From Luteolibacter sp. Y139 (GTDB taxonomy: Bacteria; Verrucomicrobiota; Verrucomicrobiia; Verrucomicrobiales; Akkermansiaceae), in contig NZ_JBBUKT010000002.1 of NCBI RefSeq assembly GCF_038066715.1, forward strand, positions 1 to 64,000: a stretch of DNA of 64,000 nucleotides, in the 5' to 3' direction. Each line of letters opens with the position of its first letter. Within the stretch, counting starts at the first letter, position 1. The notes beneath the pieces were generated by a model. It had not been told where the DNA came from. It ran no database searches and saw nothing but the letters and a program-made list of their open reading frames with translations. The translations under genes and the position numbers were made by a program. Shown one piece after another: positions 27,140-38,751 of the stretch.

Positions 27140-30100
27140 TCAGCGTTGGATCGCGTGCTCGGGGGAAACGGCGATGAAGTAGATGATGGCGCGGACGCGG
27201 TTGCGCCGATCGGTATCGGCCGGGGAAGCGGGATAGGCGATGTTCGTGGTATTGGAGACGAAGTTGTAGATCTGGTCTTCCATGGCCGTGCTCATTTGCC
27301 CTGCCATGAGGATCTTCGAGAGCTCCTGAATCAACGGGCGTAGATTGGTGGTATTGGTCCAGTAATCGGTGGGGGTGGCGGTGCGCGGCCCCATCCACGG
27401 CGAGAAGTCCATCATGATGTCGTGGGCTCCGCCGACGAAGGCGCTGAAGCCATTCGTGTAACCGGAGGTTAGGCCGTTACCGGTGGTGTGGTAGATGCCG
27501 GCGAAGAGGAAGTTCGCCTGGCGGATCACGTTGGTATCCGAACTGATCTGGAACTCGGGGGTGACGAGGTTGTTATTCTCCAGGAGGCCGGGGAACTTGT
27601 AGTCCGGCGTGAAGAAGTTGAAGACCGTGGGGGAATTGAGCGGCGTCTGGCCGAGGGCCGTGTCCGTGTTGGCGACGTTCCAATCCGAGTAGCCTGATGT
27701 CGCGCTGCCCGTGCGATCCAAGGCTGGCGCGTGAGGTGCGGCATTGAAGATGCCATTGCGGTCGACGGTCGTCGCCGGGGTGGAGCTTGTCGGTGGCGTG
27801 GTGGTGTCGTTCACGAGTTCAATCGTGAGGCGCCGCGGTTCGGTATCGCTGATGGCCTTGATCACATAGACGCCGTCCGGTGGTGCCGCGTTGCTGACCA
27901 GGGTGAAGCTCATCGTCAGCCTGGTGTTGAGTGCGAGGCCCGGCAGGGTGCCGCAGGTCACATTCAATACGCCGCCGTTGGATTGTGCGTAGCTACCGCG
28001 GAAGTAGGCGACATCGATTTCACCGGACCTCGCGGCGGCAGCGGTATCGGCCGTGACGGAGAAGGTGGTGTTTCCGATGCGAGTGACCGGGAACACGCCG
28101 CTGGTAAGGGTGCCGGCCACGCCGGTGCGGAAGCGGAGGTAAGCCGACTGGCCGGTGGCGAAGCCGTGGTCGCTCGGAGTGGTGACCGTGATCACATTGC
28201 TTCCTATCGGCTGAGTCCAGGTTCCGCGGAAGATATCGCGGGTTCTAACAGTGAAGGAAGTGGCGGGCGGAATAGCGCTCACCGTGTAGTCGCCATCGTG
28301 CGACTGGGGACCCGCGCCCGAGAACCCGAGCAGCACCTTCTGGCCATTGCCGAGGCGATGGTTGATCGCGCCGGTGTCGACGGTGATGAGTCCGCCGTCC
28401 TGGGTGTAGGTGCCGGCGAAATTGTTCGCCGGGCGGAAGGCGCGGGCGAACTGGCTGACGCGCAGGACCGGCTCACGTTGCTTGCCGAAGCTGGAGGTGC
28501 CCGCTGCTGTCAGGGAGCGCGCTTCATAATCGAGCAGGATGGCCTTGATGATGGCCTTCATGTCGCCGCGGACGCCGGAGCCGTTGTCATTGAACTTCTG
28601 GACGACGCGATACACGTAGCCCGGTGACGGCGTGGAGGTGACCAGCCGCTGGATCAACTGGCGGCAAAGGAAGGGAGCGATGTTGGGATGATTGAAGAGC
28701 TGGTCGTGGACAGCATCGAGCTCCAGCGTTGGTAGGGCTTGGAATTCCGCATTGCCTGCGATCGCCGCGCCGCTGTGGGTGCCGTAGGGATCGAGAGGGA
28801 CTCCATTGAGCACCGGGATGCCGGGGAGGACGATGTTGTTGAGAAGGCGCTTCCTGCCGGTGAAGTGGCGGGCGGGAACCTCGCGCATCGGATCGATCCA
28901 ATTCGAGGATGCGGCGAACGAGGTATTGTAGGCGCCAGTGTAGTTGTAGTCCCAGCCGGTGAAGACGTGGGCGTAGCCGATGATCGAATCCTGATCGTAG
29001 GTGGGTATCAGCTCGCCCTTCGAGTTTATCATCGGGGTGCCGTCCGGATTCAGGCGGTAGAGGCCGAGCGAGAAGAGCTGCAGGATTTCCCGTCCGTAGT
29101 TTTCGTTCGGGATGCGGCCGGCGGTGAGGCTCGGCTTGTCGTTCCTCAGCATGTCGAGGTAGCGACCCATCGCGGGATGGAGGGTCACGGCTTCCAAGAG
29201 GTCGCGCACGTTCCCGAAGGAATGATCGAGCAGCATGTCATAGTAGTCCGAGATCGTATTGGCGCGCTCGTCGAGGGGGCCGGTTTCGGAGATCACCATG
29301 ATTTCGCTGAGGGCGAAGGCGATGCGCTGGCGGAGCTGGTCGTCTCCCTGGATGGAGTTCTTCCACCAAGAGTTGAAGGTGAGGGTGCCGGGGTAGGTCG
29401 AGTTGTTGGGATTGGAGACATCGCGGAACTGCTCGACGTAGGGCAGGTGCTTGGTGACGGGTTTCGCGAACTCGGCATTGATCCACGCGTCGTAGGAAGC
29501 CAAGCCGTTGAGGGCCGTGATGTCCGAGCCATTGGCACCGAAGGTCGCCTGCTGGAGGAAGCGGGAAGCGGCGTTGACGTTGGTGTTCCCGGTGTTGGAT
29601 TCGGTCGTCCAATTGGGAGGAGCGGCCGGTGGGATGAAGGCCGGGGCGGTGCCCATGGTGACATCTTCGAAGCGGGTCAGCACGTGGCCCGGCACGGTCG
29701 CGATCACCGGGGTGGCCTTCGCCATTTCGCTCGGCGTGAGCCAGCCGACGGCGAGGTGATCGCTGCCGGTGTTTTCCTTGTGAAGGACTTCCAAATAGTA
29801 GCGACGGCCTGCTTCGAGATGCAGGAGGGGAGAAGTGGCGGCGGTGGTCCAATCGCTGGAGGAAACGGGGGCGGTGAGCTCGGCGCGCTTCCATGAATTC
29901 ACCGGTTCATCGTCATTGGAGAGGAAGAATTGAGCGACTTCATCCGCTCTGAGGTAGAAGCGGTATTCGCCGGTCTCGGGAGCGGTCAGGAAGCCACGGA
30001 GGCGAGCACCGTAGTTGTCGCCGGTATCAGAAGGTGCAGCCAGTGAGCCGAGGAGAGAGGAGGTCGGAGTGGTCGTCACCGGGATGTCGGCGATGCCGGT

Positions 30101-31798
30101 TCCCGGAGCCATGGACCACACCTCGCGGGTGATGCCGCCGCTGGTCTGGACGATGGTGATGGTGAGGAAGGCGGAGCCGGAGCCGGTGGCATTGGTTGCC
30201 GTGACCATGACCTTCCATTCGCCGGGAGTGGTCGGTGACCCGGAGATCAAGCCAGTGGACGTGGCCAAATTGAGACCCGGGGGCAGGTTCAGCGCGGAGT
30301 AGGAAGTTGGCTTGGCACTGGCCTTGATCTGATAGTTGAAGGCCGGGCCACCGATGAAGCCCAAGGCTTCAAGGGGCGCGTAGATGCGCGGAGGCGCGTT
30401 CGGGAAGAGGCGGTTCTGAGGGACGACCTGCTTGGTCTGGCTGGCCGATTGCCAGGAGAGGATCGCGCGGTGGCCGCCGGTGTTCTGGTAGTGCTCCAGA
30501 ACGATGGGGTAGCGTTTGCCGCCTTCGAGCGAGATGATGGCGGAGCTTTCGCCCTGGGTCAAAGTTACCGGAGGGGTCTCCCAGTCGCTGTCGATCACGG
30601 CGCCGTTGATGGCCATCGGAAGGAGCTGCCCATTGACCCACAGGCGGCACATCTCGTTGGCGTTGGCGAAGAACGTGTAGGTCTGAGAGTATTCGGGAAG
30701 GATCTCGCCTTCCCAGCGGCTGGAGAAGTGGTCGGAAGTGGTGCCGACGGTGATCGGACTGCCGGGCCATGCCGCGACGGCGTTGTCATAATTTACGGTG
30801 GCATCGATCCGTGTCAGGACCGGGGCTCCACCGAAGTAGGGAGTATTCAGCGCGGGGCTGGTGGCGGGCGGAATGGTGGGGTGCTTCCAGAAGCTTGCGA
30901 GGAGGCCGGTGCCGTTGGCTTGCATGCCGTCCTTGATCAAGACTCCGGCGGTGATGGCGGTTCCGCGGGTGTAGGCAGGATCCGTCTTTACCGACAGCAC
31001 GGCGAGTTCATCGGATTCGACGATGGCGTCCTGCACCGGGACGAGCGTGACCGGCACCTCGGTGGCGGACATGGGGACGGCGACGGTGGACCCCACGCCG
31101 GTGTAGTCCGAGGCACTTGCGCTGCCGGTGGCATCAAGCTTCACGAGCACGCGGCCGAGGCCGCCGCTGCGCAGCACGCGGAAGCTGCCGGAGTCGCTGG
31201 CGGGACCGGAGGTTGGCTCAGTGGCCTCGGTATCGCCGCTGACAAGGGTGATGACGGGAGTGGCCTGGAGGGCGGCGCTCACGGCGGCAAGGTCATTGCC
31301 ACCATTGGGATTGGTGCCGGCTTGGATTTCCTCCCAGTCGGTCAGGCCGTCGCCATCGCTATCGATGTCGGCCACTACCACGCGGAAGAAGGTGGTGTTG
31401 CCAGCGGGCTTCGGAATGGTGACGGAAAGATCGCCCGCGACGCCTGCATAGAGTCCGGGAACATTGACCCAGGAAGCGGCCGTGGTGGGTGTGGAGGTGG
31501 ACTGGAGCTGGTAGCGTTTGCCGGCTTGCGATGGCCATTTCAGAACCAGATTGGCAGCTTGGACGCTGATCGAGCGGACGGCGAATTGATCGATGCCCGA
31601 GAGGGGATCGGTGCCGGCTTCGGCTTCCTGTTGGTTGGTCTGGCCATCGCGATCAGAGTCATCGCCCGGCAGGAAGGTCGTGGGGCGGAACTTGGCTTCC
31701 CAGACATCACCGAGACCATTCGAATTGAGATCGAGGTCGGCGCGGGACGTAGCGACTAGGCACAGTGCCAGTGCGGCACAGCGAAAGATTCGGGACAT
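27140..31798 (-). CDS. Giant exported DUF1800 protein with PA14 and Ig-like domains
   Basis: 1552 aa with a signal peptide (MSRIFRCAALALCLVATSRA). Order: a calcium-type motif (DSDRDGQTNQQEAEAGTDP), a short beta module (LVLKWPSQAGKRYQLQSTST to TTFFRVVVAD), a second DSDGDGLTDWEEIQAGTNP, a Calx-beta-like domain (about 190-285), a PA14-like domain (about 300-455), a putative Ig domain (about 470-550), a second PA14-like domain, then DUF1800 from about residue 740 (ASRFLQQATFGANGSDITAL, NYGREILQLFSLGLYRLNPD, HVFTGWDYNYTG, PFLCRQLIQRLVTSTPSPGY). It forms a unit with DUF1501. Such pairs are very common in Verrucomicrobia; function unproven. Confidence 0.93.
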   Translation of the reverse strand: MSRIFRCAALALCLVATSRADLDLNSNGLGDVWEAKFRPTTFLPGDDSDRDGQTNQQEAEAGTDPLSGIDQFAVRSISVQAANLVLKWPSQAGKRYQLQSTSTPTTAASWVNVPGLYAGVAGDLSVTIPKPAGNTTFFRVVVADIDSDGDGLTDWEEIQAGTNPNGGNDLAAVSAALQATPVITLVSGDTEATEPTSGPASDSGSFRVLRSGGLGRVLVKLDATGSASASDYTGVGSTVAVPMSATEVPVTLVPVQDAIVESDELAVLSVKTDPAYTRGTAITAGVLIKDGMQANGTGLLASFWKHPTIPPATSPALNTPYFGGAPVLTRIDATVNYDNAVAAWPGSPITVGTTSDHFSSRWEGEILPEYSQTYTFFANANEMCRLWVNGQLLPMAINGAVIDSDWETPPVTLTQGESSAIISLEGGKRYPIVLEHYQNTGGHRAILSWQSASQTKQVVPQNRLFPNAPPRIYAPLEALGFIGGPAFNYQIKASAKPTSYSALNLPPGLNLATSTGLISGSPTTPGEWKVMVTATNATGSGSAFLTITIVQTSGGITREVWSMAPGTGIADIPVTTTPTSSLLGSLAAPSDTGDNYGARLRGFLTAPETGEYRFYLRADEVAQFFLSNDDEPVNSWKRAELTAPVSSSDWTTAATSPLLHLEAGRRYYLEVLHKENTGSDHLAVGWLTPSEMAKATPVIATVPGHVLTRFEDVTMGTAPAFIPPAAPPNWTTESNTGNTNVNAASRFLQQATFGANGSDITALNGLASYDAWINAEFAKPVTKHLPYVEQFRDVSNPNNSTYPGTLTFNSWWKNSIQGDDQLRQRIAFALSEIMVISETGPLDERANTISDYYDMLLDHSFGNVRDLLEAVTLHPAMGRYLDMLRNDKPSLTAGRIPNENYGREILQLFSLGLYRLNPDGTPMINSKGELIPTYDQDSIIGYAHVFTGWDYNYTGAYNTSFAASSNWIDPMREVPARHFTGRKRLLNNIVLPGIPVLNGVPLDPYGTHSGAAIAGNAEFQALPTLELDAVHDQLFNHPNIAPFLCRQLIQRLVTSTPSPGYVYRVVQKFNDNGSGVRGDMKAIIKAILLDYEARSLTAAGTSSFGKQREPVLRVSQFARAFRPANNFAGTYTQDGGLITVDTGAINHRLGNGQKVLLGFSGAGPQSHDGDYTVSAIPPATSFTVRTRDIFRGTWTQPIGSNVITVTTPSDHGFATGQSAYLRFRTGVAGTLTSGVFPVTRIGNTTFSVTADTAAAARSGEIDVAYFRGSYAQSNGGVLNVTCGTLPGLALNTRLTMSFTLVSNAAPPDGVYVIKAISDTEPRRLTIELVNDTTTPPTSSTPATTVDRNGIFNAAPHAPALDRTGSATSGYSDWNVANTDTALGQTPLNSPTVFNFFTPDYKFPGLLENNNLVTPEFQISSDTNVIRQANFLFAGIYHTTGNGLTSGYTNGFSAFVGGAHDIMMDFSPWMGPRTATPTDYWTNTTNLRPLIQELSKILMAGQMSTAMEDQIYNFVSNTTNIAYPASPADTDRRNRVRAIIYFIAVSPEHAIQR

Positions 31799-32156: not shown

Positions 32157-33869
32157 TCACGGCGTGAGCCAGACGCGCAGGGTATAGAAGGAGTGGGGCG
32201 GAGCTGCCGCAGACGAGTAAGTCACCGGCTGATTGTTTCCGATGATATCTGAAAAGCCGGTGATGGGAGTCCACGTGCCGGTCGCGAGATTCGTGCGAGT
32301 GTCCAATGCGTAGTGGCGCGTCTTTCCGCTGTAGCCGGGGCCGGTGGCCTGACGGGCGGTGAAGACTAGGGAGAGGTTGCCGCCACTGGATGAGATTGTC
32401 AGCGGCGAAGGCTCGCGAGTGAGAGGCCCGCCTCCGAAAAGGTACTCATCCTGATTTGTCATGCCGTCGCCGTCCGGATCAGCGGTGGGGCCGGAGATCT
32501 GTGGGTTGGCGAGTTGGGCGGTGTCGAAACGGCCCGCTCGCCATTCTTCGAAAGGATCGACACCGCCAGTCACTGTCACAGTGGCAGTATTCGAGTCCGC
32601 GGAGCCGGCGGTATTGGTTGCCCGGACCCAGTAACTGGTCGTTGTTGTCAGGGCCGAGGTGGTGAAAGAGGTTGAGGTGGCGCCCACAACAGGGTCGGAC
32701 GTCACGCCTGCGTTGCCGCGGAACCACTGAAGAGAGGGCGAACTACCGGAAACTCCCACGCTCAAGGTGGTAGTGTTGCCGCTGACAATTGTTGTGGATG
32801 CCGGCTGAGTGGTGATCGATGGCGCAGTGACACCTGTGACCGTCACGGTGGCGGTGCTGGAACTCGCGGTGCCAGCGGCATTGGTTGCCCTCGCCCAATA
32901 GCTGGTCGTGGTTGTTAGAGCGGGCGTGGTGAAGGAAGTGGAGGTGGCGCCTGCGACTGGGTTGGCCGTCGAGGGTGATGTGCCCTGGAACCACTGGATG
33001 GAGGGCGGGCTGCCCGAAGTCGCGACGGTCAAGGTGGCGGTGGTGCCGCTGGGGATGCTGGTGGATCCCGGTTGTGTGGTGAAGGCTGGCGCGGTGGCGA
33101 TGGTGACCGTGGCAGTATTGGAGTTCTGGATGACTCCATCGCGGGTGACGCGGACCCAGTAGTTCGCCGGGGTATTCGCGGTCGTGTGGGTCGGGGTGGT
33201 GTAGGTCGCTCCTGCTCCCGCGGCTCCGCTGATCTGGGTGCCGGATCCGGAAGTTCCCTTGAACCACCGGTAAGTGAGGGTGCTGCCATTGGCATTTCCC
33301 ACGACGCTCAAGGTGGTAGCTGTATTGTTCGCGATTGCCACCGACGCGGGATGGGTGGCGATGATGGGCGAGCCGACTTCAATGACGAATTCCTGCGACA
33401 TGGAAGCGCCGGTCTGGTTTGGCAGCTCCCATGCAGTTACGGTGATTGTAGTAGATCCGACTTCGGTCGGGGTTCCGTAGATCAGATGAGTGGAGGGCGT
33501 GGACAAGTCCTGGTGATCGAGCCCCGGCGGAAGTCCGGAGATGGACCAGCTGACCTTGTCGAGGCCGGGTGCATTGACGACCTGGACGATGAAGTTGAGA
33601 ACTTCGCCGGTGGTTGCGGGGACGATTTGCTCGTTGGGATCGGGGTAGCTCTGGACGATCTCGGTGGCTCCGGTGACGGTGTCGTAAGCGCCGAGTCCGG
33701 CGATGGTGGCCACGGTCCACTTGGTGACTTCTCCCAAGCCCGCGCCGCCGAGAAGCTTGGCTTCAGGGAACAGCATCTGCACCAGCGGCGAGCGCTGGAA
33801 GAGCAGGATCAGCGAGCCGAGCCTCGAGGTGAGGATGCGGCTTCTGACGGAATGGAACAGACAGGTCAT
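32157..33869 (-). CDS. Ig-like repeat protein, last gene of the ApbE/TlpA operon
   Basis: 570 aa from the ATG at 33869, 5 bp after the DUF4266 stop. The first ~60 residues contain hydrophobic stretches (RLGSLILLFQRSPLVQML, VATIAGLGAYDTVTGATEI) that may anchor it. A putative Ig domain (GLPPGLDHQD, YGTPTEVGSTTITV) follows, then three Ig-like repeats; two are close copies with SIQWFQG/SLQWFRG, GATSTSFTT and TTTTSYW. The end has DPDGDGMTNQDEYLFGGGP and the short beta module (HYALDTRTNLATGTWTPI to FYTLRVWLTP). A cell-surface or periplasmic role is likely; its placement in the redox operon is unexplained. Confidence 0.75.
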   Translation of the reverse strand: MTCLFHSVRSRILTSRLGSLILLFQRSPLVQMLFPEAKLLGGAGLGEVTKWTVATIAGLGAYDTVTGATEIVQSYPDPNEQIVPATTGEVLNFIVQVVNAPGLDKVSWSISGLPPGLDHQDLSTPSTHLIYGTPTEVGSTTITVTAWELPNQTGASMSQEFVIEVGSPIIATHPASVAIANNTATTLSVVGNANGSTLTYRWFKGTSGSGTQISGAAGAGATYTTPTHTTANTPANYWVRVTRDGVIQNSNTATVTIATAPAFTTQPGSTSIPSGTTATLTVATSGSPPSIQWFQGTSPSTANPVAGATSTSFTTPALTTTTSYWARATNAAGTASSSTATVTVTGVTAPSITTQPASTTIVSGNTTTLSVGVSGSSPSLQWFRGNAGVTSDPVVGATSTSFTTSALTTTTSYWVRATNTAGSADSNTATVTVTGGVDPFEEWRAGRFDTAQLANPQISGPTADPDGDGMTNQDEYLFGGGPLTREPSPLTISSSGGNLSLVFTARQATGPGYSGKTRHYALDTRTNLATGTWTPITGFSDIIGNNQPVTYSSAAAPPHSFYTLRVWLTP

Positions 33870-33874
33870 CGAAA

Positions 33875-34093
33875 TCAATTGCAGCCGCAGCCGCCGCCGC
33901 CGACGCCACCACCGCCGAAGCAGGCTTCGCGCGAGAAGTAGGCGTGATCGGTCATGGCGGTTTCAAGGGGATCGAGGCTGTCCGCCATCACGGGCTTTGC
34001 GAGCGTGCCGCGCTCGTAGGGCTGGACGCGCACCAGCGCGGGCGAGCAGGCGGAGAGCGCGATCACGGGGATCAGGAGAATGAGCCGGGTCAT
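33875..34093 (-). CDS. DUF4266 small lipoprotein with Gly/Cys tail
   Basis: 72 aa. A lipoprotein signal (LLIPVIALSAC) is followed by VRVQPYERGTLAKPVMADSL and the C-terminal tail CFGGGGVGGGGCGCN. This matches DUF4266, a family of tiny lipoproteins found with DUF3570, ApbE and TlpA-type genes. The start overlaps the TlpA stop by 4 bp. The Cys residues in the tail could be thioredoxin targets, metal ligands or modification sites; this is inference. No biochemical role is known to me. Confidence 0.9.
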   Translation of the reverse strand: MTRLILLIPVIALSACSPALVRVQPYERGTLAKPVMADSLDPLETAMTDHAYFSREACFGGGGVGGGGCGCN

Positions 34094-34569
34094 GGTTCTA
34101 ACAGGGCTTGGATTTCCTTCTCATATTCGGCTTCGGTCTTGGCGCCCTTGAAGCCATTGTGGACATGGCGGATCACGCCCTTGCGGTCGGCGATGTAGCT
34201 GGTCGGCATGGTGGCCGGGGCGAAGAAGGCGGCGGCCTTGTGGGCGGAGTCGTGAACGAGCGGGAACTTCGCGCCCATCTTGCTGGCGAACTTCTGATGA
34301 TTGGCGGGATCGTCATCGACGCCGACGCCGATGATCACGAGCCCCTTCGCCGCATACTTGTCGTGGAGGCGATTGAAGGCGGGAAAGGAGGCCTTGCAGG
34401 GGCCACACCACGAGGCCCAGAAGTCGACGACGACGACCTTGCCTTTCGTTTCCGGAAGCTTTGCTCCGGGGATCAAGGTGGAGAGTTTGGGCAAGGCTTG
34501 TCCGACTTTTGCTGGCTCGGCGGCCAGTGTCGAAAGGGTGGCGGCAAGGATGGCGGCGACGAGTTTCAT
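34090..34569 (-). CDS. TlpA-family thiol-disulfide oxidoreductase
   Basis: 159 aa with an N-terminal signal (MKLVAAILAATLSTLAAEPA). The thioredoxin fold carries the active site in VVDFWASWCGPCKASFPAFN and the cis-Pro region PATMPTSYIADRKG. TlpA-type proteins reduce or isomerise disulfides in the periplasm. It overlaps both neighbours (ApbE and DUF4266) by 4 bp. A likely local substrate is the Cys-tailed DUF4266 lipoprotein (inferred). Confidence 0.92.
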   Translation of the reverse strand: MKLVAAILAATLSTLAAEPAKVGQALPKLSTLIPGAKLPETKGKVVVVDFWASWCGPCKASFPAFNRLHDKYAAKGLVIIGVGVDDDPANHQKFASKMGAKFPLVHDSAHKAAAFFAPATMPTSYIADRKGVIRHVHNGFKGAKTEAEYEKEIQALLEP

Positions 34570-35537
34570 GCGGCTTTCACGAGGTAGCTGCCGAAGGAAC
34601 GGGTCCCTTCGATTCCGGTTTCAGTTTGGGCACACACCTCCACGCCGCGGGCGAGCGAGGCGAGGTGGAGGCCATCACGGATGCCGAGGACGAAGACGGC
34701 GGTACTGAAGATGCCTGCTTCGAGGCAGGTGGGGCCGACCACGGTGACGGCGCGCATTCCATTTGCGACGGGCCAGCCGGTGCGTGGATCGAGGATGTGA
34801 CCGTAGCGGACGCCATCATGAGTGAAGTGGCGGGCGTAGTCGCCGGATGAAGAAACGGCTTGGCCGCTGATGGCGAGGCCGCCCCAGCATTGGCCGGGGT
34901 GGCAGCCGTCCTCGATGCCGACATGCCAGAAAGGATGCCGGCCATTGCCTCCCATGGCGAAGATGTCGCGGCCGAGATCGACCAGGGCATCCGTGATGCC
35001 GTGGGCATGCGCGATGCGGGTGAGGTGATCGACGGCGTATTCCTTGCCGAAGCCGCCGAAGTCCAGGCCCATGCCCGGTTGCGGGAGGCGCACTGCGCCG
35101 GGGCGGCGCTGGACTTTGTCCCAACCGGTGAGAGCGAGTGCGGCTTTCACCTCGCTCTTTGCGGGGAGCTTCAGGTGGACTGTCTTCCAATCCCAGACGC
35201 GCAGCAGAGGCAGCAGGGTGGGGTCGAGAATGCCGTTCGTGCGCTGATAGAGATTTGCCGCGAGCGTGAGCATTTGCTCCGTCTCGGGATCGACCGGAGT
35301 CCAGTCGCCGCCCGCTGCGTCATTGATGCGGGAGATCAATGACGTGGGGCGATAGCGGGAATACTTCGCTTCGAAATGCTCCAGCCATGTGAGTGCTGCT
35401 GCTGCAAAATTCAGGGCGGCGCGTTCATCCTCCAGCCGGAACTTGATGGAGCAATTCGTGCCGAGCGCACGGAACTCCAGATGCCGGACACCCTGTGGGT
35501 CCGGCCGGAGTGGCGTGACGGGTTGCTTGGAGGACAT
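34566..35537 (-). CDS. apbE: FAD:protein FMN transferase (ApbE family)
   Basis: 323 aa from the ATG at 35537. ApbE family marks are LEHFEAKYSRYRPTSLISRI, MGLDFGGFGKEYAVDHLTRI, a diverged DLGRDIFAMGG, SSGDYARHF and GHILDPRTGWPV with its metal-binding Asp. ApbE transfers FMN from FAD to a Thr/Ser of an exported acceptor. An evident signal peptide is missing, unlike most periplasmic ApbE proteins. No FMN-bind-domain acceptor is encoded in the window. It follows DUF3570 by 4 bp and overlaps TlpA. Confidence 0.92.
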   Translation of the reverse strand: MSSKQPVTPLRPDPQGVRHLEFRALGTNCSIKFRLEDERAALNFAAAALTWLEHFEAKYSRYRPTSLISRINDAAGGDWTPVDPETEQMLTLAANLYQRTNGILDPTLLPLLRVWDWKTVHLKLPAKSEVKAALALTGWDKVQRRPGAVRLPQPGMGLDFGGFGKEYAVDHLTRIAHAHGITDALVDLGRDIFAMGGNGRHPFWHVGIEDGCHPGQCWGGLAISGQAVSSSGDYARHFTHDGVRYGHILDPRTGWPVANGMRAVTVVGPTCLEAGIFSTAVFVLGIRDGLHLASLARGVEVCAQTETGIEGTRSFGSYLVKAA

Positions 35538-35541
35538 CGGG

Positions 35542-36714
35542 TTAAAATGCTGCGTGAATGCCGAATGTCCAGATGTCGGCATCTGCGTAGGATTGATCCG
35601 GCGAACGTTCGGAGGCGTTGCCGGTGCCGTCCATGACGTAGCGCTCGTAGGCGGCGGAGAGGCCGAGGTGGTCGTTGAAGTTGTAGTTCAAGCGGAGGCC
35701 GCCGCTGATGGCGTCGAAGGAGGAGAGGCGGTAGTCGGCGGAGTAATTCGGGCCGCTGCCGGTGGGAAAGTTGGCGGGAGTTCCGGGGAAGTTATCCAGT
35801 GTGTTCGTGAAGAAGTCGGCGGCGTCCTGATGGTAGTAGCGGATAAAGGGTGTCGCTTGGAAATGCTCGCCGACTTCCTGCCGCCATTCGATTTGCACGG
35901 TCTGGGAGGAGATGCCGAAGTCGTCGTGGGAGAGTCGGAGTGTGCCATCGAGAGCGGCCTTCACCGGGTCGAAGTAGTGGCGCGCGCCGAGTTGCAGGAC
36001 TTGGCGGAAGCGTGAGTCGGGGCGGTTTTCGCGGTAGACATTGACGACGGGCACTTGGATCGGGCCGCCGGGGCCGGGGAGGGTGATAATCGTGGTGCGC
36101 TGGATGAGCTTGTAGGGATCGTTCAGATAGCCTTCCGCGTAGCCGAGGGTGAGATTGGCGGTGAGGAGGGTGTTCTTGTCGAGTATCTGGCTGACGCCGG
36201 CGAAGAAGTCGTAGGAGCTCTTGTCCTGGTCGCCGAGGGCCGGGACCTCGACGTCGTCATCGAGGTAATTGAAGCCGAAGCGGAGGGTGGTGTTTTTCTG
36301 GTTGAGGTCCCAGGTGTCGGTGATGGCGAGGCCGTGTGAGATGTAGTCCTCTTCTCCGCTGTAGGAGAACTCGATCTCGGCGCGGTGGTCGCCGATTTGC
36401 CGTGAAATGGCGCCGAGGATGCCTTCGCGGACGTCTTCGAGCTGCGCGTAGAAGGGCTGGACGCTGCCGGGGAGGACTCCGGTGGGGGAGGATCCGCTGA
36501 TCGCGTCGTGGATGTATTGGAAGCGGATCGCTGTGTCGTCGTTCAACTCGATCCGGGCGCGGAGGTATTGCGCTTCGACTCGGATGCGGTTGTCGTCTTC
36601 CTGATAGAGTTGGAAGCCGTAGTCATACTCCTGCGGCGGGATCTCGATCTCCCCGTGCGCGCGCAGGGCAGGGCACAGGAGGGATGCGACGAGGAGCGGT
36701 GGACGGGTAAGCAT
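35542..36714 (-). CDS. DUF3570 outer-membrane beta-barrel-like protein
   Basis: 390 aa with a signal sequence (MLTRPPLLVASLLCPALRA). The mature protein alternates polar and aromatic residues in beta-strand fashion (RVEAQYLRARIELNDDTAIR, NKNTTLRFGFNYLDDD-like strands, HFQATPFIRYYHQDAADFF, GLRLNYNFNDHLGLSAAYER) and ends with a Phe, as outer-membrane barrels do. It matches DUF3570. It is the first gene of the five-gene operon, so the promoter should lie between 36715 and 36849, divergent to the ThuA gene. Possibly an outer-membrane port or scaffold for its partners. Confidence 0.9.
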   Translation of the reverse strand: MLTRPPLLVASLLCPALRAHGEIEIPPQEYDYGFQLYQEDDNRIRVEAQYLRARIELNDDTAIRFQYIHDAISGSSPTGVLPGSVQPFYAQLEDVREGILGAISRQIGDHRAEIEFSYSGEEDYISHGLAITDTWDLNQKNTTLRFGFNYLDDDVEVPALGDQDKSSYDFFAGVSQILDKNTLLTANLTLGYAEGYLNDPYKLIQRTTIITLPGPGGPIQVPVVNVYRENRPDSRFRQVLQLGARHYFDPVKAALDGTLRLSHDDFGISSQTVQIEWRQEVGEHFQATPFIRYYHQDAADFFTNTLDNFPGTPANFPTGSGPNYSADYRLSSFDAISGGLRLNYNFNDHLGLSAAYERYVMDGTGNASERSPDQSYADADIWTFGIHAAF

Positions 36715-36849: not shown

Positions 36850-37836
36850 ATGAAAACCCCGCTGATTCTGGTCCTGTCCTTCGCTTCCGTCCTGAGTGCC
36901 GCGGAGCCCAAGCACGTGCTTTTCCTCGCCGGCACCAACAGTCATGCGTGGGGGCAGCACAAGCACCTGGCCGGTAGCACGCTGCTGTGCGAGTCACTGC
37001 GGGAAACGCCGGGGATCGAGGCGGAGGTGGTCACTGCCTGGCCGGATGCGGCGGCGCTGGCGAAGGCGGATACGCTGGTGATCTATGCGGATGGCTGGCA
37101 GGCCCACCCTGCGAATGACAAGCTGGCCGAACTGGAGGCATTCATGAACTCCGGCAAGGGGCTGGTCGCGTTGCACTGGGCGACGGGCATCCAGGCGGCT
37201 GATCCGGAGTCAAAGGACCAGAAGGAGGATCCGCGGCGAAAGCAGTGGCGTGAGCTGATGGGCGCGGATTTCGAGGCTTACAATGCCATCAGCAATTTCT
37301 GGAAGGCCGACTTTGCGGGGCCATCGGAGCACCCCGTGTCGCGGGGGGTGAAGCCATTCTCACTCTACGACGAGTGCTACTACCACCTCCGGGAGAGCAG
37401 CGATGCGAAGGTGGAGCGGGTGTGGAAGGTTCATCCACCGGCGGAGACCATCGAGCCGGGGCTTTCACCGTATCGTGGGAATGATGATGCCCGGGCTTCG
37501 GTGAACGACCGTAAGGAAGAGCAATACGTGGCGTGGACTTTTCAACGGCCGAAGGGCGGACGCGCCTTTGGTTTCACGGGCGGGCATTTCCTCTGGAGCT
37601 GGGCGAAGGATGATGCCCGCAAGCTGGTCCTGAATGGCATCTTGTGGAGCGCCGGGGGAGAAGTCCCTGCGAAGGGAATCGAATCCAAGACGCCGGATGC
37701 GAAGCGTTTGCTGACGGGGCTGCCGGAGAAGAATCCCGGCTGGACCGAGGCGGCGCTTCAAAAGGCGCTGGACCAGGCAGCGAAGGGGGAAGTCTTCCCG
37801 TGGCTGGAGTTCACCGACAAGCCGCTGCCTGAGTGA
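36850..37836 (+). CDS. Exported ThuA-like protein
   Basis: 328 aa with a signal peptide (MKTPLILVLSFASVLSA). The ThuA/GATase-like fold shows KHVLFLAGTNSHAWGQHKHL at the start, GKGLVALHWATG, EHPVSRGVKPF, DECYYHLR and RAFGFTGGHFLWSWAKDDAR. ThuA relatives are linked to trehalose and other sugar use, and large families occur in Verrucomicrobia and Planctomycetes. The specific substrate is unknown. Divergent from the DUF3570 operon. Confidence 0.9.
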   Translation: MKTPLILVLSFASVLSAAEPKHVLFLAGTNSHAWGQHKHLAGSTLLCESLRETPGIEAEVVTAWPDAAALAKADTLVIYADGWQAHPANDKLAELEAFMNSGKGLVALHWATGIQAADPESKDQKEDPRRKQWRELMGADFEAYNAISNFWKADFAGPSEHPVSRGVKPFSLYDECYYHLRESSDAKVERVWKVHPPAETIEPGLSPYRGNDDARASVNDRKEEQYVAWTFQRPKGGRAFGFTGGHFLWSWAKDDARKLVLNGILWSAGGEVPAKGIESKTPDAKRLLTGLPEKNPGWTEAALQKALDQAAKGEVFPWLEFTDKPLPE

Positions 37837-37906: not shown

Positions 37907-38470
37907 TCAGGCGCGGCTGATGTAGCTGCCGTCTTCCGTCTTGATGATGAGCTTTTCGCCCGGATTGATGAAGAGCGGAACCTGCACCACGAGGCCGGTT
38001 TCCAAGGTGGCCGACTTGTAGGCGTTGTTGGCGGAGTCGCCCTTCACGCCTTCCGGTGATTCGGTGACGATCATCACCATCGACGGCGGCAGTTCGATGT
38101 CGGCGACGAGGCCGTCGGCGAAGAGCAAGGTGTAGGTGTTGCCTTCGATCAGGTAGTTCCGCACGGAGTCGATGATGTCATCGTGAACGGCGACGTCATC
38201 GAAGGTCTCGTTGTGGAGGAAGTGGTAGCCGCCGGAATCCTTGTAGGAATACTCGTGCGGGATGCGCTCGAGGAGCACGGAGTCCATCGAGTCGTTCGAG
38301 GTCAGGCGCAGGTTGGAGACCTTCTTGTTCGAGACGCTGCGGATCGACATCACCACGTAGGACGCCATGCGCGGCGGCGTCTTGAGTTCGTGGGAAATCA
38401 CGACGCAGACGTCGTTGTTATGACGGACGGCGTGTCCCTTGCGGAGATTGATTGCGGGCGTGCTGGCCAT
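37907..38470 (-). CDS. efp: Elongation factor P
   Basis: 187 aa from the ATG at 38470 (MASTPAINLRKGHAVRHNND). The three beta domains of EF-P are present, with the C-terminal signature NAYKSATLETGLVVQVPLF and ending INPGEKLIIKTEDGSYISRA. EF-P relieves ribosome stalling at proline runs. The domain I tip reads KTPPRMAS, placing Arg34 where many bacteria have a modified Lys, reminiscent of the Arg-type EF-P glycosylated by EarP. No epmA/B or earP gene is adjacent. The upstream in-frame extension lacks similarity. Confidence 0.93.
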   Translation of the reverse strand: MASTPAINLRKGHAVRHNNDVCVVISHELKTPPRMASYVVMSIRSVSNKKVSNLRLTSNDSMDSVLLERIPHEYSYKDSGGYHFLHNETFDDVAVHDDIIDSVRNYLIEGNTYTLLFADGLVADIELPPSMVMIVTESPEGVKGDSANNAYKSATLETGLVVQVPLFINPGEKLIIKTEDGSYISRA

Positions 38471-38751
38471 GATGTGGACGGGCGGAATAGGCGGGGAGGG
38501 GCCTGTGTGCAAGCGTGGAGTGAGATGGAGGAAATCCGGCCGGCGCGGGAGGCGGGGGAGGGTGAATCCTGCGGAAACTGAAGCCGAAGTTGTCGGTCAG
38601 AATTTGGAATGGGAATTTTTTTGAGTTGTAAGTGGCTTGTTTTGAGGTTGTTGTGCGATCCTCGGTAAACTCACAGGTTCACGAATTTTGAGGTTCCCGC
38701 TACACCCGGCGGTTGGATGGCGATCCTTTTTCGCCAACTACCCAAGAACCT

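Follow-up and report, generated by a model that had tools for sequence, protein, structure and literature searches.

A 64,000-nucleotide stretch of DNA from Luteolibacter sp. Y139 (contig NZ_JBBUKT010000002.1, positions 1 to 64,000), hereafter the window, carries a known flavinylation gene set in a new five-gene form. The genes encode a DUF3570 protein, an ApbE, a TlpA/ResA-like thioredoxin, a DUF4266 lipoprotein and an immunoglobulin (Ig)-repeat protein. Two features of this operon are surprising: the Ig-repeat protein begins with a domain, here called IgN, and the ApbE belongs to a clade that lacks both a conserved active-site aspartate and a signal-like leader. We slightly favor an interpretation in which the operon is an electron relay of the cell envelope, wherein dithiol chemistry would be coupled to covalent flavin mononucleotide (FMN) at the outer membrane. 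If FMN resides on the outer face of this membrane, the system would provide a heme-free exit for electrons from a Gram-negative cell. The locus is also a small testable set, whose parts are a barrel with its predicted site, a domain that is a candidate acceptor, and a clade of ApbE enzymes whose active site differs from the one described.

A published gene set with a fifth member

The preliminary description of this region proposed five minus-strand genes joined by 4-bp overlaps or by gaps of at most 5 bp, and the open reading frame (ORF) coordinates and Pfam matches between positions 32157 and 36714 agree with it (Table 1). Neighboring genes overlap by 4 bp (ATGA) at two junctions and are separated by 4 and 5 bp at the other two. 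Translation of ApbE most likely begins at position 35537, leaving a 4-bp gap past the DUF3570 stop codon; the longest ORF extends from 35582. A TTG codon at 33878 is a possible alternative start for the Ig gene. The operon resides in a 7.1-Mb assembly that is 96.7% complete and is also present in another genome of the genus (G307), and the closest named homologues of its proteins are those of Luteolibacter arcticus.

Together, the DUF3570, ApbE, thioredoxin-like and DUF4266 genes are the gene content of the DUF3570-type flavinylation system described by Meheust et al. (2021; PMC8238504), whose text on DUF4266 and DUF3570 is the part of that survey relied on here. The DUF3570 protein of Chlorobium luteolum was flavinylated by its cognate ApbE, and modification was abolished only when the serines of both [S/T]GA[S/T] motifs were changed. 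The survey tallied clusters in which DUF4266 and a thioredoxin-like protein occur, often together with DsbD, the proposed donor, and suggested redox cycling of the DUF4266 CXC motif. It left open what DUF3570 is for and how to account for orphan ApbE genes. A published interpretation therefore exists for an association whose function had been considered not known in the preliminary description. That description also held that no FMN-bind acceptor is encoded in the operon. Modification of the C. luteolum DUF3570 by the ApbE that accompanies it means that a probable acceptor is nonetheless present in the window, namely the DUF3570 protein, which is the probable ApbE substrate here. The window resembles the published system in its ApbE, DUF3570, thioredoxin-like and CXC-bearing DUF4266 proteins, and in the presumed role of DUF3570 as substrate. 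It differs by the fifth gene with IgN and by the single motif and short loop of DUF3570. The Ig protein, the missing ApbE aspartate and the barrel model find no mention in the survey's text on DUF4266 and DUF3570.

Linkage of these genes is conserved. Through relatives of IgN we found 36 loci, three of which end at a contig edge, leaving 33 that are usable. DUF4266 precedes IgN on the same strand in 33/33 and DUF3570 is present in 33/33, whereas ApbE is found in 32 of the 33, and the DUF3570-ApbE pair lies upstream in the same order in 32/33. The exception (L032) has the order DUF4266-IgN-DUF3570 and no ApbE within reach. TlpA was detected with our own model in 27 of the 33 loci and missed in six. 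The association of DUF3570, ApbE, TlpA and DUF4266, as pointed out previously, is thus not accidental.

The same is true for the Ig gene. DUF4266 is encoded by 42 of the 387 genomes examined for the phylum and IgN by 25 (broad model; 23 with the near model), and all 25 are among the 42. Within the window's class, Verrucomicrobiia, 25 of the 26 genomes with DUF4266 also have IgN, compared with 0/16 in other classes. The hypergeometric probability of this co-occurrence is 2e-28 by genome and, for 17/17 genera, 9e-17, with kinship ignored in both values. Because of this distribution, the linkage of the Ig gene to the operon is no accident. The gene had been taken for an added fifth member; a fifth member it is, but its presence in 25/26 of these genomes argues against a local addition. 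Extra IgN copies occur with no operon in reach (L079 and L080, and L086 near a contig end), and in three loci (L128, L145 and L146) a copy lies 4.7-4.9 kb downstream of DUF4266. Five genomes of the same genus (G178, G251, G277, G319 and G327) have neither DUF4266 nor IgN, so that possession of the system varies even between members of one genus.

The DUF3570 protein has no sequence relative in the PDB, and its relatives gave no match on plasmids. An AlphaFold2 model built with 52 sequences is an 18-strand barrel of the outer-membrane type (mean pLDDT 91.5, pTM 0.83). In a Foldseek search the model is broadly similar to outer-membrane barrels (best match at E 2.4e-10, with TM 0.42 relative to the query length), and such barrels, including OmpG and FadL, account for all 50 matches listed for the model. 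The even strand number of the model, a hydrophobic leader and a C-terminal phenylalanine (the protein ends in HAAF) are also those of an outer-membrane barrel. Loops that connect an odd strand to the following even one range from 2 to 36 residues, with lengths of 11, 36 and 15 among them, and those of the opposite side have 2 to 4. As a rule, the long-loop side of an outer-membrane barrel faces the outside. In the model, the flavinylation motif (residues 70-76) closes strand 3 (61-77) just ahead of the 11-residue loop 78-88, and by this rule it is probably located at the long-loop rim and extracellular.

Among the best 120 of 696 DUF3570 homologues, a sample outside of which other phyla fall, 99 carry [ST]GA[ST] at the motif and 21 carry [ST]GSS like the window. 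The congener at L072 reads DAISGAS.

IgN as a candidate acceptor or a possible export signal

The Ig protein consists, in order, of the IgN domain, a first beta-sandwich, Ig repeats and a C-terminal DPDGDG region. The roughly 70 residues of IgN match neither a family of the searched Pfam and NCBIfam copies nor any PDB chain. A newer precomputed Pfam run reports PF26918 in two of 64 homologues, with its place in the protein not listed. The sequence DTVTGAT at the end of the domain agrees at every position with the ApbE consensus D-x-x-[S/T]-G-A-[S/T]. In the portion of PMC12052999 on this consensus, loss of the threonine abolishes flavinylation and loss of the aspartate hardly affects it. According to the corresponding portion of PMC10722498, the aspartate is essential and the motif has the narrower form D-[GAIQ]-[IALVF]-[ST]-G-A-[ST], from which the second residue of the window motif (Thr) departs. 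The IgN of the window shares the D-x-x-[ST]-G-A-[ST] site, with Thr at the acceptor position, with FMN_bind proteins such as RnfG, NqrC and PplA. Unlike those systems, the window's operon and the host genome have no match to FMN_bind (PF04205). Matches to NQR2/RnfD and DUF2271 are likewise absent from the host genome at its 96.7% completeness, leaving DUF3570 and IgN as the only candidate acceptors found.

Conservation of this motif depends on the distance from the window. Among 64 protein matches to IgN, successive motif positions read Asp (64), Thr/Ser (63) or Gly (1), Val (63) or Ile (1), Ala (43), Ser/Thr (20) or Val (1), Gly (64), Ala (63) and Thr/Ser (64). The 41 near loci have Asp, Gly and Thr/Ser in 41 each and Ala in 40. 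Among 29 far rows, which represent 28 distinct genes as L146 and L087 share one, the first position is His in 12, Asp in nine, Asn in seven and Gln in one, followed by Gly in 28 and by Ala and Thr in 29 each. For the best 120 of 152 far proteins, the motif was located by a pattern requiring GA[ST], which was found in 120/120; Gly, Ala and Thr are present in 120 each, the first position is His in 89 and Asp in 17, and position 4 is Ala in 119. Thus GA[ST] is retained in 63/64, 40/41, 28/29 and 120/120 rows of these partly overlapping near and far sets. The full motif is less widespread, with Asp in 64/64 and 41/41 near members versus 9/29 and 17/120 far members, and with Ser or Thr at position 4 only in a minority. 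However, the DUF3570 proteins of far genomes often read DSIAGATP, and alanine at position 4 therefore occurs within a family known to be modified. Columns L8, Q13, R14, P16, G48, G55, A56 and T57 are invariant in 19 near and far IgN sequences. From these patterns, we put forward the flavinylation of IgN tentatively, as a possibility that falls somewhat short of being probable.

Another explanation for the same conservation is that IgN is only an export signal, in other words a lengthened signal peptide whose n-region is conserved, which is cleaved after [AST]-G-A and resembles an ApbE site by accident. The Ig protein would then accompany the flavinylated barrel at the surface without being a flavoprotein itself. 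Signal peptidase I recognizes [AST]-x-A before the cleavage site and needs no specific residue at -2 or +1. The [AST]-x-A of IgN fits this rule, and distant members mostly read [HDQN][SAT][LM]AGAT. AlphaFold2 models residues 38-67 of the Ig protein with pLDDT values below 50 and places the motif between a helix (43-60) and the first beta-strand, which begins at residue 70; this placement is compatible with a cleavage site as well as with an exposed tag. The second helix attains a hydropathy of at least 1.8 in 60/120 of the far set (best 120 of 152), and type II secretion genes adjoin the operon or a lone IgN gene in five loci. However, the -2 Gly and +1 Thr/Ser, neither of which signal peptidase needs, are among the most conserved residues of IgN. 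The distance from the Gln-Arg pair to the Thr has a median of 44 residues (near 43-54, far 43-68), also a point against a signal only. When the near set is taken together with the window, moreover, helix 2 reaches 1.8 in only 11/62, versus 59/60 TlpA leaders. We consider this explanation possible, although on balance we doubt it.

The type II secretion genes are read as GspJ/K/L/M in L079, L084, L091, L093 and L128, with Pfam support for K and F in L128 and the remainder identified by similarity. At L079 they lie directly ahead of a lone IgN gene; elsewhere they lie beside the operon.

An ApbE clade without the active-site aspartate

The window ApbE is a clear family member, as evident by its match to PF02424 (245.5 bits versus a curated cut-off of 25.6). 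In the relevant portion of PMC12052999, the conserved active-site residues of Vibrio cholerae ApbE are Ser241, His257 and Asp285. The serine and histidine are retained in the window, and the aspartate is replaced by Gly275. The same replacement is present in 65/65 readable ApbEs of this operon type in addition to the window, in the context C-x-x-A-G-x-x-[SA]-T or a similar one. This position was read in 67 of 72 ApbE ORFs. Gly is present in all 62 that belong to this operon type, and Asp in the four of a second operon type and in the other ApbE of the host genome. Three further ApbEs (L129, L131 and L132) were read as Gly by eye, and two outside operons were set aside.

The second departure is the leader, which we call signal-like when its hydropathy is at least 1.8. 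The window ApbE has none and by hydropathy does not have the periplasmic or membrane-anchored location typical of ApbE proteins. Among ApbEs of this operon type, 63 were matched for scoring, one of them too short, and two were unmatched; only one of the 62 scored leaders reaches the threshold, versus 59/60 for TlpA. Cytosolic ApbEs are noted in parts of the ApbE review literature.

These two changes raise the prospect that the operon's ApbE is no longer an FMN transferase, and that it binds flavin or is otherwise altered while DUF3570 and IgN stay unmodified. The consistent glycine (65/65 plus the window), where aligned solved ApbEs have Asp, and the near absence of signal-like leaders (1/62) are as expected from such an enzyme. 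We nonetheless find this improbable given that the window retains two of the triad residues, Ser and His, that a motif is maintained in DUF3570, and that in C. luteolum the cognate ApbE, which may have either Asp or Gly at this place, does flavinylate DUF3570 (PMC8238504).

A second operon type was observed in other classes (L130, L135, L139, L142 and L143), in which DUF4266 comes first and ends in CGC[YF]. Its ApbEs have Asp in 4/4, and three of the four have a signal-like leader, with the fourth at 1.75. The other ApbE of the host genome (C3:440485; L149 7396-8328, G000 contig C3) also has a signal-like leader and Asp.

The distribution of IgN coincides with a change in DUF3570. Two [S/T]GA[S/T] motifs are reported for DUF3570 in the above text of PMC8238504, whereas the window protein has the single DAISGSS. 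In loci without IgN, a second [STA]GA[ST] lies past the first motif in 8/10 complete DUF3570 proteins, mostly inside a long insert. This count omits 10 DUF3570 ORFs with no readable motif (five of the second operon type and five fragments), and it is given as 8/10 because L078 was labeled as lacking IgN though IgN is detected there and L133 is split over frames. With IgN present, 53 of 54 DUF3570 rows have no second [STA]GA[ST], and one has such a string somewhere downstream. The insert has a median of 46 residues without IgN (12 rows) versus 14.5 with it; the values of 45 (L081) and 149 (L146) arise from a missed end pattern, and the L081 alignment shows a short insert. Perhaps, then, the IgN site replaces the second site of the extended DUF3570 loop found in other classes. 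A simpler version, in which DUF3570 lost its FMN acceptor and IgN took over that role, was rejected, because the DUF3570 of L072 has an intact DAISGAS and its IgN has DTVTGAT. Only a second DUF3570 site is missing alongside IgN.

Two loci mark the boundary of this pattern. L126, of genome G234, is from the sole genome of the same order with DUF4266 but no IgN. It has the long DUF3570 insert, in which the would-be second site reads SGPS, and its ApbE branches with those of other classes at a fork that has no firm support, a placement that may reflect transfer. DUF3570, ApbE and DUF4266 are present at this locus, and neither TlpA nor IgN was found by our own models. L094 has IgN and a short insert, yet on the tree it lies apart from the main IgN clade, again at this poorly supported fork.

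The ApbE and DUF3570 patterns could be joined in a more specific proposal, which we rate as rather unlikely. The signal-less, glycine-bearing ApbE clade would flavinylate two acceptors, DUF3570 and IgN, before their export, and the second FMN of the barrel would have moved to a surface protein in Verrucomicrobiia, giving an electron outlet driven by thioredoxin and the CGC tail.

A proposed electron relay, a rival role in metal handling, and flanking genes

The DUF4266 protein was correctly described as a 72-residue lipoprotein with a cysteine-bearing tail: it matches its Pfam family, has a lipobox-like LSAC (identified by eye) with a probable lipidated Cys16, and ends in CFGGGGVGGGGCGCN, which includes the conserved C-terminal C69-G-C71-N72 and thereby the CXC of the family. 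CGC is located at the C-terminal end in 73/74 relatives. The notion that the tail is generally cysteine-rich did not hold beyond this motif. Cys58 is private to the window (0/74 relatives; the congener at L072 has Ser), and a functional trio with this extra cysteine was accordingly rejected. The TlpA-like protein has CGPC (Cys55-Cys58) and a signal-like leader with a hydropathy of 2.35. It scores 85.5 bits against the ResA subfamily model, under the cut-off of 170, and its relatives have CxPC in 61/64, with one CTSC, one CAVC and one unread.

In the relay that we slightly favor, ApbE would transfer FMN onto the DUF3570 barrel at its long-loop rim. DsbD or another donor would reduce the periplasmic TlpA-like thioredoxin, which in turn would exchange electrons with, and so reduce, the CGC tail of DUF4266. 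The glycine-rich end of this lipoprotein could act as a swinging arm that reduces the FMN on the barrel, and electrons would leave at the surface to an outside acceptor. The Ig-repeat protein, if displayed at the surface, might hold a second FMN or bind a partner. In support of this reading, the host genome has a DsbD match and DsbD adjoins the IgN operons L021 and L036; a motif of the [ST]GA[ST] or [ST]GSS kind is also maintained in the DUF3570 of relatives.

Mammalian thioredoxin reductase has a C-terminal Gly-Cys-Sec-Gly arm, a flexible redox tail that acts between flavin and thioredoxin. The proposed DUF4266 arm is comparable by analogy only, as DUF4266 is a separate lipoprotein. Similarly, MtrCAB is a porin-cytochrome conduit that places a barrel and a bound redox cofactor at the outer membrane. 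The operon may be likened to it conceptually, with hemes in that system and with flavin and thiols here.

Several observations weigh against the relay and the modifications that it entails. The window DUF3570 motif reads SGSS, with no [STA]GA[ST] anywhere in the protein, and in the portions of the DUF3570 flavinylation literature covered here we found no test of this form. The IgN aspartate is mostly His, Asn or Gln in distant members and the fourth residue mostly Ala (HSLAGAT in 63/120, best of 152), and A-x-A ahead of the Thr would also suit signal peptidase I. Strings of the [ST]GA[ST] kind exist inside Ig repeats (P0041 and P0042), the window's own Ig protein has NQTGAS, and the IgN motif counts are raw counts. 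The Ig-protein model becomes confident immediately past the motif. Because a glycine occupies a conserved active-site Asp position, ApbE activity is not assured, and the enzyme has no signal-like leader although its presumed targets are exported. Concerning the second site, two of the eight examples (L136 and L140) fall within serine-rich stretches, and two changes on the ApbE tree suffice to account for the IgN label, such that a swap of the second site represents one or two evolutionary events, or a few at most.

A different role for the DUF4266 tail would be that of a metal site, for instance for copper, with the operon dedicated to metal handling and not to electron transfer. CGC could bind soft metals, an iron transporter is present in 25 clusters in the above text of PMC8238504, and by eye a copper-ATPase-like gene lies near the L136 operon and an efflux gene pair near that of L132. 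In addition, E1-E2 ATPase, heavy-metal-binding and YHS families match two each of 65 flanking proteins from loci taken as lacking IgN. However, no metal family has more than two members among the 25 most frequent families of each flank set, and a thioredoxin partner would better fit a thiol couple. We therefore judge metal handling to be decidedly improbable.

Among the ORFs selected from our own simple gene calls, 65 of 83 make up the flank set of loci taken as lacking IgN and 121 of 209 the other set; three of the 65 come from L032, which has IgN. Families matched number 92 and 125 in all, and the 25 most frequent of each were listed. A common neighbor that might name the function was sought here and rejected, as no listed family exceeds 5/121 or 2/65 proteins.

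Table 1. Positions of the operon genes, motifs and adjacent genes in the window
Feature	Position	Strand	Basis or remark
DUF3570	35542-36714	-	Pfam PF12094 2.2e-68
ApbE	34566-35537	-	Pfam PF02424 8.7e-73
TlpA/ResA-like thioredoxin	34090-34569	-	Pfam AhpC-TSA 9.1e-23; 4-bp ATGA overlap
DUF4266 lipoprotein	33875-34093	-	Pfam PF14086 1.1e-20; 4-bp overlap
Ig-repeat protein	32157-33869	-	Pfam Ig_7/Ig_3/I-set; ATG start, 5-bp gap
IgN N-terminal domain, residues 1-69	33663..33869	-	No family in Pfam/NCBIfam copies searched
Variant flavinylation motif D70-AISGS-S76 (DAISGSS) of DUF3570	36487..36507	-	Alignments
Candidate flavinylation motif D63-TVTGA-T69 (DTVTGAT) of Ig protein	33663..33683	-	Sequence, alignments
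Codon of ApbE Gly275 in C271-L-E-A-G275-I-F-S-T	34713..34715	-	Asp in aligned solved ApbEs
DUF1800 protein, 1552 aa, with PA14, GLEYA, He_PIG	27140-31798	-	Follows operon; Pfam
ThuA-like gene, divergent from operon	36850-37836	+	Pfam
Elongation factor P gene, after ThuA-like gene	37907-38512	-	Pfam

Nine loci (L024, L026, L027, L029, L030, L037, L038, L074 and L075) carry genes for a YceI-like protein, a type III polyketide synthase and a FAD_binding_3 monooxygenase downstream of IgN, with a SAM methyltransferase added in four. They represent one lineage, several members of which are titled Prosthecobacter. The identities rest on Pfam for members of L024, L026 and L074 and on similarity for the others. 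Enzymes of these kinds make alkylquinones in other bacteria, and alkylquinones are able to act as electron carriers (PMC10896814, in the portion on these compounds). The gene set is a possible alkylquinone pathway, and its position beside the nine operons hints at a quinone-like partner for the relay; the window's operon instead precedes the DUF1800 gene. The host genome yields two weak matches to type III polyketide synthase, one of them over the cut-off by a partial stretch.

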